Positions 12,563 to 57,347 of a stretch of 57,351 nucleotides of DNA are shown piece by piece. A program made the position numbers and the translations under genes. The stretch's first letter is position 1. Each line of letters starts with the position of its first letter. The stretch is from Microcaldota archaeon (GTDB taxonomy: Archaea > Micrarchaeota > Micrarchaeia > Micrarchaeales > CABMGC01), in assembly GCA_021790305.1 (NCBI GenBank), contig JAJYED010000004.1, positions 1-57,351 of the forward strand, in the 5' to 3' direction. The notes under the pieces are model-generated. The model searched no databases, was not told the DNA's origin, and was given only the letters and a program-made list of their open reading frames with translations.

Positions 12563-12637
12563 GCTCCGATCGTCTAGTCCGGTCAAGGACGCAGGCCTCT
12601 CACGCCTGTAACCCGGGTTCAAATCCCGGCCGGAGCA
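12563..12637 (+). tRNA. tRNA-Glu (CTC)
   Basis: cloverleaf: GCTCCGA / D arm GTCT..GGAC / CAGGC CTCTCAC GCCTG / CCGGG TTCAAAT CCCGG / CCGGAGC A. Confidence 0.93.
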
Positions 12638-12656
12638 CTTTTGCGTATGTAAAGAA

Positions 12657-12923
12657 TCAGTCCTTTCTTGGCATTTTCTTTAGCTCTTTAAATATGATAA
12701 TAGATGAAGTGATTCCTGCTATCCCCAGCCCTATTGTTGCACCTGCAGCAATGTGTATCAGCTGATTTTCCGGCAGATCATTAGGATTGGCCTTTGAGAA
12801 GTGAATACCGGCGAGCCATGCTCCTATAACTGAGCTTGTGGCAGTGAACTTTATCCCTTCGTTTATCAGATATTTTTTGGGATTATTCTCCTGCTTCCCT
12901 ATTTTGAAGTGCATGCTAAACAA
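12657..12923 (-). CDS. small membrane protein
   Basis: 88 aa with two hydrophobic stretches and FKELKKMPRKD tail; resembles the divergent neighbour. Confidence 0.6.
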   Translation of the reverse strand: MFSMHFKIGKQENNPKKYLINEGIKFTATSSVIGAWLAGIHFSKANPNDLPENQLIHIAAGATIGLGIAGITSSIIIFKELKKMPRKD

Positions 12924-12979
12924 GGATTTAAGATGAATATTATGATTATTAAATATTGTTGCTTTGTGAGAAGAACTTA

Positions 12980-18840: not shown

Positions 18841-18883
18841 TCGGCGCTCAGAAGAAGAGGTTCGCTTTTTCCTGTGTTTGAAG

Positions 18884-19971
18884 TGGGGTGTCCCATAATT
18901 ACTCATAAGTGGCCATGACTGCACTTCAGGCCTGATCTTATGAGATTTTACGGGATTGTACAGTTATAAAGAAACAACTTTGCGTCGATTTCCTTCTGTA
19001 TCATATCTTTTGTCTTAGAAAAGACAGATTCTCCGAACATCCCTTTGAACTTCCCATATGCTCCTTCCACTATCCATCTTTTTCCAAAACCAGATTTTTT
19101 CTTCCGTTTCTTTTGTTTTGCAATTCTGTACTTCTTACTGAGAGTGGTATGATACCTGCCATGGTGTCCATGACTGTCACTATCTGTGGGCAAGTCAAAC
19201 TGTTCTATTACTGCCTTTCTTCTCTCCCCTCCACACCTTCTGGTCGCGTTTATTCTTACAGGAACTATGCATCTGAAACTATGTTCCTTTCCCAGTTCAT
19301 GAGTCATTTCTGCGTCCCATGCACGGTCTGCAAAAAGAGATTTCATAGGTCCAAATAACGGATCCAATAATATCTTTGTAGGTTTTATGTCGTGTAGGTT
19401 ATCTTTTGTAACTGTTCTAGTTAACACTCTTCCATTGTCTGTATCTACTGCGAAAAAGAGTTTGATCCAGTCCTTTCTTTTGCCATACATCTTCGTACGG
19501 TATTCTCCATCGTTTACCAGTTTTATTCCTGTAGAATCAATCGCGACCTCAATTTTTTCCCCACTTTTGATTGGATGCGTATTGAAATTTACTTCAGTTT
19601 TCAATTTTTTAATTCGTCTCCACAAAGTCCTAAAATTTGGAGTTTCAACCTGAATATTCCTGAGAATATCTCGTATTGCGCCGGAAACCTGCCTGTAACC
19701 AAACCTGAGAAGACATTTCAAAGCAAATCCTGCAAAAACCAATCCGTTCCCATATATGAACGGTCTGCCGATTTTATCTTCATTCAGCTCCTTCACTTCC
19801 CTGCTTTGAATTAACGCTGCAGGTTCTATATACAGTGAAATCTCTCCTCTTCTTACTAACATATTGTTATATTCTTTCCAATTCCTATTCTTTACCATCT
19901 TAGTCGCCAAAACTAAGATGCCCCTAGGGGTTTATACCCCTTGGGGATTAGTGGAATTATTGGACAACGCA
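18884..19971 (-). mobile_element. IS5-family (ISH1-like) insertion sequence
   Basis: transposase ORF flanked by imperfect TIRs (TGGGGTGTCCCATAATT vs TGCGTTGTCCAATAATT, 14/17) and 8-bp direct repeat GTTTGAAG at 18876-18883 and 19972-19979. Confidence 0.87.
18948..19910 (-). CDS. DDE transposase (IS5/DDE_Tnp_1-like)
   Basis: VAIDSTGIKL..., FFAVDTDNGRVL, LFADRAWDAE, VEGAYGKFKGMFGE. Confidence 0.9.
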   Translation of the reverse strand: MATKMVKNRNWKEYNNMLVRRGEISLYIEPAALIQSREVKELNEDKIGRPFIYGNGLVFAGFALKCLLRFGYRQVSGAIRDILRNIQVETPNFRTLWRRIKKLKTEVNFNTHPIKSGEKIEVAIDSTGIKLVNDGEYRTKMYGKRKDWIKLFFAVDTDNGRVLTRTVTKDNLHDIKPTKILLDPLFGPMKSLFADRAWDAEMTHELGKEHSFRCIVPVRINATRRCGGERRKAVIEQFDLPTDSDSHGHHGRYHTTLSKKYRIAKQKKRKKKSGFGKRWIVEGAYGKFKGMFGESVFSKTKDMIQKEIDAKLFLYNCTIP

Positions 19972-19989
19972 GTTTGAAGATAAGATATA

Positions 19990-54286: not shown

Positions 54287-55207
54287 TTGCCAATAGAATG
54301 TGTAAAACTTACAAAAAAATACCACGGAGCTACTTCAAAATCACTGGATAATGTAAATGTCAGCATACCTACCAAGGGGATATTCAGCCTCATAGGAAGG
54401 AATGGGGCAGGAAAGACTACACTTACAAGAATACTTGGAACTCAGCTCATGCCGAGCTCGGGACACGCGAGCATTAATGGGCTTGATGTTGTGGATGATG
54501 CTAAGGAGCTCAGGGAGATCATCGCGGTGATACCGCAGGATGGGAAACCTGTTCCGTGGGTAACTCCTGCACAGATGATAATGACATATTTGATGTGGAG
54601 AGGATATGGGATTAGGGATGCAAGGTCAAGAGCCTTAAGCGTGATAAAGGATGTCGGTATTTACAAGGAGAAGGATAAGCATATTGAAAATCTTTCAGGC
54701 GGCACAAGGAGAAAGGTGCTTGTAGGATGCGTCCTTGCCTCTGAAGCAGAGATAGTCTTCATGGACGAGCCGACTACCGGCCTGGATCTTATATCAAGGA
54801 CTTCTTTTTGGGAGACTCTTGGAAGGCTGAAAAAGGACCGTTTCTTCCTTCTTACCACGCATTACCTTGAAGAGGCAGAGTCACTTGCTGATGGAATAGG
54901 CATACTTGACAACGGAAAGCTGCTGGTATCAGGGAGCATGGACCAGATAAGGAGGAGGATACGCTATAAGTACATGGTTACTCTTGGAAAAGATGCAAAG
55001 GTCCCTGATGTTAAGGGAAAGACGGTGCGCACTTCTAACAGCACAAAAATAATGACATCTGAGAAGGAGGCAAAGAAGATAGCTTCTGAGATGATAAGGA
55101 GGCATGCAGAATTTTCAATGAGTCCCATATCACTGAATGAGATATTTTACTCTTTTGTAAAGGAGGATATAGATTTAGAAAACGGTGAGAGTCATGAGGA
55201 GAAATAA
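54287..55207 (+). CDS. ABC transporter ATP-binding protein (TTG start)
   Basis: Walker A GRNGAGKTT, LSGGTRRKV signature, Walker B IVFMDEPTTGLD. Confidence 0.92.
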   Translation: MPIECVKLTKKYHGATSKSLDNVNVSIPTKGIFSLIGRNGAGKTTLTRILGTQLMPSSGHASINGLDVVDDAKELREIIAVIPQDGKPVPWVTPAQMIMTYLMWRGYGIRDARSRALSVIKDVGIYKEKDKHIENLSGGTRRKVLVGCVLASEAEIVFMDEPTTGLDLISRTSFWETLGRLKKDRFFLLTTHYLEEAESLADGIGILDNGKLLVSGSMDQIRRRIRYKYMVTLGKDAKVPDVKGKTVRTSNSTKIMTSEKEAKKIASEMIRRHAEFSMSPISLNEIFYSFVKEDIDLENGESHEEK

Positions 55208-55937
55208 GCTTAGTCAGATCTGGGCATCCGTCCTTCTTACAGCAATATACTGGATGAGAAATTACCCTATATCGATAGTTGCGTCCTTCCTCTCTCCGCT
55301 TGCGATAGTGTTGATAATATCATTTGTAAGCAAAGGTGCACTTGTAGGAGTAGCTGTTGAAGGTGCGTTGATAACGACTTTTGTGCTTAATGGAATAATG
55401 GAGATGACAGACATATCTCATTTGAAGAACGATTTTAAGATACAGGATATGGTAGTGGCTTCTCCCACTTCTGCCTTCTCGTATATATTTGGCATGTCGC
55501 TTTCAAGCCTGGCTACTTCTATCCCATCAATAATATTCATACTCATATTGTGGAGCGTTTTTGTACATACTACGATAGTATCTGCTCTGACGGTTTTTGC
55601 CGTGGTGGCTCTCCTCATGGTCCTTTCCATATCAATAGGTTTCTTCCTGGCTACCAGAACATCAGATATATCTCAGAGTTATCAGTTTACAAGCATACTT
55701 GGCTTGCTTTTTACAACAATTTCCCCTATATACTATCCTATATCTCTGATACCGATGCCATATAGGTATCTTGCATATCTCTCTCCGATAACCTATGGAG
55801 CAGAGATAATACAGAGCGCAACTGGTTACCTTAGCATAAGTTCCATGAATCTTGCAGTTGACTGGCTGGTCCTCATCGTTCTTACAGCAATTACACTGTT
55901 CTTCGCGATAAAGGATTTGAGATGGCGCGAGGCATGA
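55185..55937 (+). CDS. ABC-2 type transporter permease
   Basis: six hydrophobic segments, overlaps the ATPase gene. Confidence 0.85.
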   Translation: MRVMRRNKLSQIWASVLLTAIYWMRNYPISIVASFLSPLAIVLIISFVSKGALVGVAVEGALITTFVLNGIMEMTDISHLKNDFKIQDMVVASPTSAFSYIFGMSLSSLATSIPSIIFILILWSVFVHTTIVSALTVFAVVALLMVLSISIGFFLATRTSDISQSYQFTSILGLLFTTISPIYYPISLIPMPYRYLAYLSPITYGAEIIQSATGYLSISSMNLAVDWLVLIVLTAITLFFAIKDLRWREA

Positions 55938-55941
55938 GTTT
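55803..55941 (+). repeat. direct repeat copy 1 (3' end of permease gene)
   Basis: 25-bp and 65-bp blocks repeated at 57135-57228. Confidence 0.92.
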
Positions 55942-56080
55942 TGCTTGGGAGATTTCGGGTTTAGGATAGATGTAATTCGCATATTGTTATCTGCCATAAC
56001 GCCGCCTAACGGCCAGGTAGGATACGATAACTTTTTCAGTTTATTATTAAACAGGTTAAGCGTATTAAACAAGTGAAACG

Positions 56081-57136
56081 ATGGGAAATAAGGATTGGTA
56101 TACTGAAAGGTGGAAAAATAAGCAAGCGCTTAAGAAAAAGACACGACGCCTTGAAAAACTGAAAAGAAATGTAAAAAAAGATAATTCTGATGAAGACTCT
56201 CTAGAACTGACTATTTATGATTCTGACGATCCGGTTTTAGGTGAATTAAATCAGGGCATCCTAGCTGGTCTGAGTTATCCCACTTATACAATCCTGTCTA
56301 AAGGGAAATTTATTCAAGGAATGACCGAATCAAAAGAACAGGGAGGTATACTTAGCAAGCTTTCGATAGGAGATAACATAGTATTTGACATGTATGATGA
56401 AAAACCTGTGATAATGGGGATAACCCAAAGGCGCTCGAAGCTTGTCAGGTTACGTGCAGACGCTTCTAGGCGCTCTCAAGCTGGAGCAGAAGAGCAAGTG
56501 ATTGCAGTTAATATGGACTTGGCAATAATTGTTGCTTCTGTAGCCCAGCCCACTTTCCACCCAAGGTTAGTAGATAGATACCTGATAGTGTGCCAGTACG
56601 GCAACATACGTCCTTTGCTATGTCTGACTAAGATAGACTTAGCGCCAATACCAGATGTGTCAATGTACCGTGGGATAGATCTGCCGGTTGTAAGCATATC
56701 AAACAAAACTAATGAAGGCATAGACCAGCTACTGCCTTATCTTAATGGAAAGTGTTGTGTCCTAGTTGGTAACAGCGGCGTAGGAAAATCCTCCCTAGTC
56801 AACACTCTGCTTAAGAGAGAGGAAGCATTAACAGGAGAGGTAAGCAAAAAATCTGGAAAAGGAAGACACACTACTTCAGCTTACATGCTGCACGTCTTAG
56901 ATAAATCTACTTATCTTATCGATACACCTGGAATACGTTCGCTTGGTTTATTGGACATAGACAAGAGATCATTGCGCTTATATTTTCCTGAGTTTCATGA
57001 GTTCGCAACTAATTGCAAATTCAATGATTGTACACATTATCATGAACCAGACTGTGCAGTCAAAAAGGCAGTAGAAGAAGGGTTTATCTCACAGGAGAGG
57101 TACGATAGTTATATCCGTATCCTATCAAAGAGTTGA
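56081..57136 (+). CDS. rsgA: bacterial-type circularly permuted GTPase RsgA/YjeQ
   Basis: VNMDLAIIVASVAQPTFHPRLVDRYL, CLTKIDL (G4), GNSGVGKSSLVN (G1), DTPGIRSLG (G3), C-terminal CKFNDCTHYHEPDCAVKKAVEEG zinc motif. Confidence 0.93.
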   Translation: MGNKDWYTERWKNKQALKKKTRRLEKLKRNVKKDNSDEDSLELTIYDSDDPVLGELNQGILAGLSYPTYTILSKGKFIQGMTESKEQGGILSKLSIGDNIVFDMYDEKPVIMGITQRRSKLVRLRADASRRSQAGAEEQVIAVNMDLAIIVASVAQPTFHPRLVDRYLIVCQYGNIRPLLCLTKIDLAPIPDVSMYRGIDLPVVSISNKTNEGIDQLLPYLNGKCCVLVGNSGVGKSSLVNTLLKREEALTGEVSKKSGKGRHTTSAYMLHVLDKSTYLIDTPGIRSLGLLDIDKRSLRLYFPEFHEFATNCKFNDCTHYHEPDCAVKKAVEEGFISQERYDSYIRILSKS

Positions 57137-57228
57137 GATAATACAGAGCGCAACTGGTTGCCTCGTTCTTACAGCAATTACACTGTTCTTCGCGATAAAG
57201 GATTTGAGATGGCGCGAGGCATGAGTTT
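57135..57228 (+). repeat. direct repeat copy 2 (internally deleted remnant of permease 3' end)
   Basis: 57135-57159 = 55803-55827; 57164-57228 = 55877-55941; 49 bp of copy 1 replaced by 4 bp. Confidence 0.92.
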
Positions 57229-57347
57229 GGCGGGGGGGAGATTTGAACACCCGATCTCTAGATTTCTAAGATCATAGCCGAAAGGCTCATTACTCATCAT
57301 GCTATGCATATGAGTCTAGCGCTCTAACCAGGCTGAGCTACCCCGCC
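57228..57347 (-). tRNA. tRNA-Met (CAT; elongator or Ile2 not resolved) with ~45-nt intron at 37/38 (57264-57308)
   Basis: minus strand GGCGGGG TA GCTCAGCCTGGTTAGAGC G CTAGA CTCATA[intron]A TCTAG AGATC GGGTG TTCAAAT CTCCC CCCCGCC A. Confidence 0.9.

Follow-up and report, generated by a model that had tools for sequence, protein, structure and literature searches.

Gain of rsgA at a tRNA 3' end, beside a duplicated permease end, in a micrarchaeal genome

The rsgA locus and its empty sites

The DNA examined here is a 57,351-bp window, the whole of one contig (JAJYED010000004.1; G000:C35) of the Microcaldota archaeon assembly GCA_021790305.1 (G000), which ends at a tRNA gene and carries beside it the GTPase gene rsgA, set between two copies of the 3' end of an ABC-2 permease gene. 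The permease gene (55185..55937, plus strand; PF01061, 1.9e-15) and the DrrA-like ABC transporter ATPase gene before it (54287..55207, plus strand; PF00005, 1.2e-24) are residents: the ATPase gene holds the same position in the congeners G001 and G004, and the permease is 93% identical in G004, 90% in G001 and 62% in G003. Exact-repeat comparison places copy 1 at 55803..55942 (plus strand), where it forms the functional, coding 3' end of the permease gene, and copy 2 at 57135..57228 (plus strand), where it contains no separate reading frame and lies directly against the minus-strand, CAU-anticodon tRNA gene; copy 2 is a non-coding relic in which decay has begun. The copies share an exact 25-bp repeat (55803-55827 and 57135-57159) and an exact 66-bp repeat (55876-55941 and 57163-57228), and these two pairs are the only exact repeats of at least 20 bp in the window. 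rsgA (56081..57136, plus strand) is the sole gene between the copies, and the last two bases (GA) of its TGA (57134-57136) are also the first two of copy 2, which gives ~2 bp of microhomology at the junction. A preliminary description of the window had recorded the repeats, the single-gene content of the unit and the overlap of the stop codon with copy 2, all of which we confirm; its statement that copy 2 has lost 49 bp replaced by 4 describes a real difference that is equally read as one substitution (A to G) and a 45-bp deletion. Both copies carry variants of their own species relative to G004, which dates the duplication to after the divergence from G004. No transposase, terminal inverted repeats or flanking inverted repeats were found in or around the rsgA unit.

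The 3' end of the tRNA gene (57228..57347, minus strand) is the integration point. The gene has a 45-nt intron, and its anticodon was read by hand from the loop CT-CAU-A; ARAGORN missed it under default settings, called it Ser(CGA) once introns were allowed, and called the G002 orthologue Met(CAT). A U-U mismatch in its T stem, seen by inspection, is found in the congeners as well, and the name Ser(CGA) is wrong. Since another Met(CAT) tRNA gene was found in G004, the window tRNA may be elongator Met or Ile2. In G004, the closest congener, the site is empty, the permease end (...GAGGCATGAGTTT) being followed at once by the tRNA gene, and the permease likewise adjoins the tRNA in G003. A 3.4-kb insert with Nudix genes occupies exactly the same place in G001, and in G005 mscL lies beside the same tRNA and the ABC gene pair is absent. 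None of the five congeners has rsgA, and the chance that incompleteness alone, as calculated from the stated completeness of the genomes, would produce this absence from all five is ~1e-4. The rsgA gene was gained at the tRNA 3' end from an empty state, and the neighbouring permease end was duplicated; the tRNA locus, the empty site in relatives and the recent gain of a single gene that had been proposed earlier are all borne out by these comparisons. The unit shares with tRNA-3'-end integrated elements its position immediately at a tRNA 3' end, at a site that relatives have vacant. With no PF00589 or PF00239 match in G000, and integrases at tRNA tails in relatives only, we class the unit as non-autonomous cargo rather than an autonomous element.

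The last 126 bp of the window are found again in another contig of the bin, C12, where the sequence to their left differs; C12 carries the tRNA together with the downstream genes seen in relatives (tRNA-His, ribonucleotide reductase). In C12 (L050, 16200-17773) the left flank of the CAU tRNA is the Nudix insert of G001, identical over 494 bp; it is either a chimeric junction through shared sequence, or cross-species exchange, or real polymorphism.

tRNA 3' ends as insertion points

The preliminary description was right to place the insertion at a tRNA locus; it missed that the genus has many such insertion points at tRNA 3' ends, of which this site is one. In a comparison of 593 kb of G000 and 481 kb of G004, which are 85% identical at the nucleotide level, synteny stopped at the tRNA 3' end in 10 of 16 orthologous tRNA loci and never at the 5' end; on the 5' side of tRNA genes, synteny between congeners extends for kilobases. 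The stop lies -1 to +7 bp from the tRNA 3' end at nine loci; for the CAU tRNA it falls at +2 bp in contig C12 and inside copy 2 in the window. Of the 105 internal ends of synteny between G000 and G004, 10 coincide with a tRNA 3' end, against 0.13 expected, and none with a 5' end; between G001 and G004 the count at 3' ends is 5 of 65 (0.1 expected). A second genus of the family (g2) shows the same pattern when G006 is compared with G032, in at least five pairs of loci. The cargo at tRNA 3' ends amounts to one to a few genes, including those for a P-type ATPase, a 187-aa membrane protein and a PIN-domain-like protein; cargo names other than the ABC genes, rsgA, Nudix and mscL were read from the sequences, without database matches.

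Among inserts whose far boundary is legible, four of one or two genes close with a distal duplicate of their tRNA tail. It measures 50 bp or more at tRNA-Leu(TAA), where the unit enclosed has two genes and is AbiE-like, ~21 bp at tRNA-Glu(TTC), and 16 bp at both tRNA-Phe and tRNA-Asp. Overall, tail copies were commoner than in controls, 6/123 against 1/363. The insert at tRNA-Leu(TAA) (G004:C29:10100-11700), with its perfect tail copy, an AbiEi/AbiEii-like toxin-antitoxin pair and no integrase, is the cleanest mini-insert that we saw. In the window, the distal boundary of the insert, where other inserts keep their tail copy, bears 14 tail-like bp (55942..55955, plus strand), which are probably a decayed tRNA 3'-tail copy, the remnant of a distal attachment site (att). 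Copy 1 is followed by TTTTGCTTGGGAGATTTC, the corresponding tRNA side reads TTTGGCGGGGGGGAGATTTG, and the 9-mer GGGAGATTT is common to the remnant and the tRNA; a nine-base tail match has p ~0.014 against random 36-mers of the window, with position left aside. The permease repeat probably extends a further ~13 bp into this decayed tRNA-tail copy. The tail at the permease junction of G001 is not significant alone.

Candidate enzymes are present in relatives. Related tyrosine integrase open reading frames (ORFs) overlap the tails of tRNA-Glu and tRNA-Arg in G003 and G006, and G175 and G032 have other integrases close to tRNA 3' ends. PF00589 had no match in G000, G001, G002 or G005, which are incomplete metagenome-assembled genomes in which the absence of an enzyme is no proof.

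Comparison with G004 reveals a second tRNA 3'-end hotspot in the window, where tRNA-Glu(CTC) is followed by an 88-aa ORF (12563..12949, plus strand). At the same 3' end G004 has 4.2 kb of other genes, including a transposase-like gene, bounded by a 15-bp repeat of tail plus flank (AGCACCTTTGCGCAG). Elsewhere in the window, an insertion of ~1.09 kb (18883-19972) that is absent from G004 contains a 320-aa transposase-like ORF and has a target overlap of ~8 bp. In another contig of the genome (G000:C1, L152), the 3' end of a HAD-like gene and 35 bp of intergenic sequence are duplicated (297-358 and 1617-1679, 89%) around a two-gene stretch; this may resemble the permease event, and recombination between paralogues is the more likely origin. 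A repeat in C10 (L161), considered as a further gene-end duplication, proved to be tandem surface-protein paralogues.

RsgA and its origin

The product of rsgA, named RsgA in the preliminary description, is indeed that protein, a 351-aa, intact, circularly permuted GTPase with a zinc-finger region: it scores 167 bits against PF03193 (4.7e-49; cut-off 30) and 205 bits against TIGR00157 (cut-off 100), and matches solved RsgA/YjeQ/EngC structures in the PDB, down to 5.6e-45. The G motifs occur in the permuted order TKID, GxxGVGKSS and DTPG, followed by a C-terminal Cys/His zinc motif, and in an alignment of ten micrarchaeal RsgAs the residues T183-K184-D186, G230-S237, D281-G284 and C312/C317/H319/C325 are invariant. 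The protein thus shares with bacterial RsgA/YjeQ/YloQ the entire catalytic and zinc-finger core, with scores above the family cut-offs and PDB matches, and differs from them in its archaeal host, its own clade and its N-terminal ~45 residues. It probably still serves as a GTPase in small-subunit assembly. The gene has a G+C content at third codon positions (GC3) of 0.359, the lowest in a comparison with 29 genes (mean 0.49), and its codon usage, which the preliminary description had proposed to compare, is atypical. The leader or promoter region that came in with rsgA (55956..56080, plus strand) has no convincing match in its own or related genomes; the search was made with 143 bp (55938-56080) against nine genomes. 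An integron attC site, suspected by eye at 55990-56060 (GCCTAAC...GTTAAGC), was dropped, its inner arms not being complementary.

Twelve other genomes among 301 in the phylum Micrarchaeota have rsgA, in one of them (G219) interrupted by stop codons. In a tree of the micrarchaeal sequences with 70 bacterial ones, the window RsgA lies inside a micrarchaeal clade (Shimodaira-Hasegawa-like approximate likelihood ratio test, SH-aLRT, 99) whose sister is a Clostridia group (95), and its nearest relative, with 66% identity, is that of the same-family micrarchaeon G175. Since RsgA falls inside a supported micrarchaeal clade, the acquisition from bacteria is old, its source being, by this phylogeny, bacteria related to Clostridia, and the proximate donor of the window gene was probably another micrarchaeon. 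This argues against the direct recent gain from bacteria put forward in the preliminary description, which had itself named branching within an old archaeal clade as evidence to the contrary. A review states that archaea have no counterpart of YjeQ/YloQ (PMC9032327); the window genome and the 12 other micrarchaeal genomes contradict it. Across eight genus-level micrarchaeal lineages rsgA has eight differing neighbourhoods, and in three of the eight no more than 100 bp separates its 3' end from the 3' end of a tRNA gene that faces it. At the rsgA-bearing tRNA-Gly (G012) and tRNA-Val (G260) no tail copies above control were found, and no RsgA was found in the viral contigs searched.

Discussion

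We consider it reasonably probable that a tRNA 3'-end integration hotspot of this micrarchaeal genus received rsgA as cargo, by way of tail entry, aberrant excision and re-integration. Comparison with relatives shows that in the ancestral arrangement only a few bp separated the permease stop codon from the tRNA 3' end, and that the incoming DNA was inserted at precisely that point. The tail-copy remnants, together with the integrases at tRNA tails in relatives, lead us to infer site-specific entry by recombination at the tRNA 3' tail, with a tyrosine integrase that would have acted in trans or been lost later. An earlier integrated copy, with an rsgA drawn from the micrarchaeal RsgA pool, could then have been excised aberrantly, joining the rsgA stop to permease position 55803, so that the excised circle would carry the last ~139 bp of the permease and one tail. 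Re-integration at an empty permease-tRNA site (tail with tail, or by a homologous crossover in the ~150-bp shared segment) would yield the order permease, tail remnant, rsgA, permease end and tRNA. Several observations weigh against this account. The window's distal tail is imperfect and just 14 bp long, and most broken tRNA loci have no clear tail copy; G000 (82% complete) has no match to PF00589, PF00239 or Cas1; the contig stops at the tRNA, so that the far side of the site is taken from relatives; and one-sided homologous or illegitimate recombination would yield the same product as this two-step origin.

That last process is a possible, if doubtful, alternative. In one-sided, homology-facilitated illegitimate recombination, DNA of a strain with permease and rsgA would enter a cell with the empty site, pair on the left through homology within the permease, and be joined after the rsgA stop to the recipient permease at 55803, the final step needing no integrase. 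This would produce the observed order exactly; the right junction has short homology only (GA, or GAG..GAGATAAT with two mismatches), no integrase match was found in G000, and the near identity of the copies would mean that the DNA came from the same species. By itself, however, it fails to explain the tRNA 3'-end insertion points or the tail copies, and an earlier site-specific event would still be needed. The preliminary description had favoured a ~139-bp target duplication made by the integration itself, which would have been transposon-like or through a staggered break, and an insert between direct repeats at a site that is empty in relatives has that appearance. Usual transposase target duplications are far shorter than 139 bp, though, the unit has neither transposase nor terminal inverted repeats, the duplicate starts 139 bp inside the permease gene, and a tail-like remnant, probably a decayed tRNA-tail copy, lies at the far boundary of the insert, so that we regard this origin as quite unlikely. 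The duplicate is better explained by an element that carried host flank and either recombined with the site or re-integrated there.

It is also unlikely that rsgA was inherited vertically, having been present elsewhere in the ancestor of the genus, lost in the five sampled species and moved here in the sixth. RsgA is indeed old and patchy in Micrarchaeota, but several losses and a move would be required, incompleteness is an improbable explanation of its absence from the congeners, the rsgA neighbourhoods differ among genera, and the codon usage and GC3 of the gene are atypical. Finally, an assembly or binning artefact could have joined the sequences of two co-occurring strains; the contig ends at the tRNA, and the flank of C12 identical to G001 means that one or more of the junctions running through the tRNA may be chimeric. 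Yet neither the junction of rsgA with copy 2 nor the 45-bp deletion has a repeat able to mislead an assembler, the 126-bp overlap of contig ends suggests a long k-mer, exceeding the 66-bp repeat, and copy 2 can be told from copy 1, which makes such an artefact very improbable.

Taken singly, the locus is an instance of the already known gain of genes at tRNA 3' ends. Archaeal tRNA-targeted elements with tyrosine integrases have been surveyed in Thaumarchaeota (PMC6563490); they too insert in the 3' part of tRNA genes, including intron-containing ones, have short direct repeats and can occupy several tRNA genes of one genome, but they are larger and multigene, whereas the inserts here have mostly one or two genes, no integrase, and occupy more than half of the comparable tRNA loci. 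The additive flexible genomic islands of Ca. Methylopumilus, with their repeated tRNA tails (PMC10872708), can likewise be as small as a single coding sequence; those lie at one bacterial tRNA-Lys locus, ours at many archaeal tRNA loci, usually with one cargo unit each. According to the same source, the tycheposons of Prochlorococcus and Methylophilaceae are also tRNA-anchored cargo islands, with tRNA-Met among their targets, but measure 4-200 kb and have a tyrosine recombinase. The rsgA unit (~1.2 kb, one gene, no recombinase) was rejected as a tycheposon, for which a tyrosine recombinase and multi-kb cargo are required. A casposon or a non-autonomous derivative of one was discarded in view of the lack of Cas1 in G000 and of inverted repeats flanking the insert, and a serine recombinase route in view of the lack of a PF00239 match in G000.

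The interest of these observations lies in the density of tRNA 3'-end sites in a 0.75-Mb archaeal genome, over half of the comparable tRNA 3' ends differing between sister species, and in an archaeal RsgA that circulates. These differences between sister species offer a concrete way in which archaea with reduced genomes, largely dependent on hosts, acquire genes singly. The patchy micrarchaeal RsgA clade makes the function of RsgA on the archaeal ribosome directly testable. We suggest, tentatively, that Micrarchaeota may have an economy of single-gene cassettes: mini-elements 0.7-1.5 kb long, made up of a single gene and a tRNA-tail att site, mobilised in trans by the tRNA-tail integrases of other strains and filling most tRNA 3' ends. 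If this is true, tRNA genes would be genome-wide docking ports through which bacterial-type genes such as rsgA spread in the phylum.
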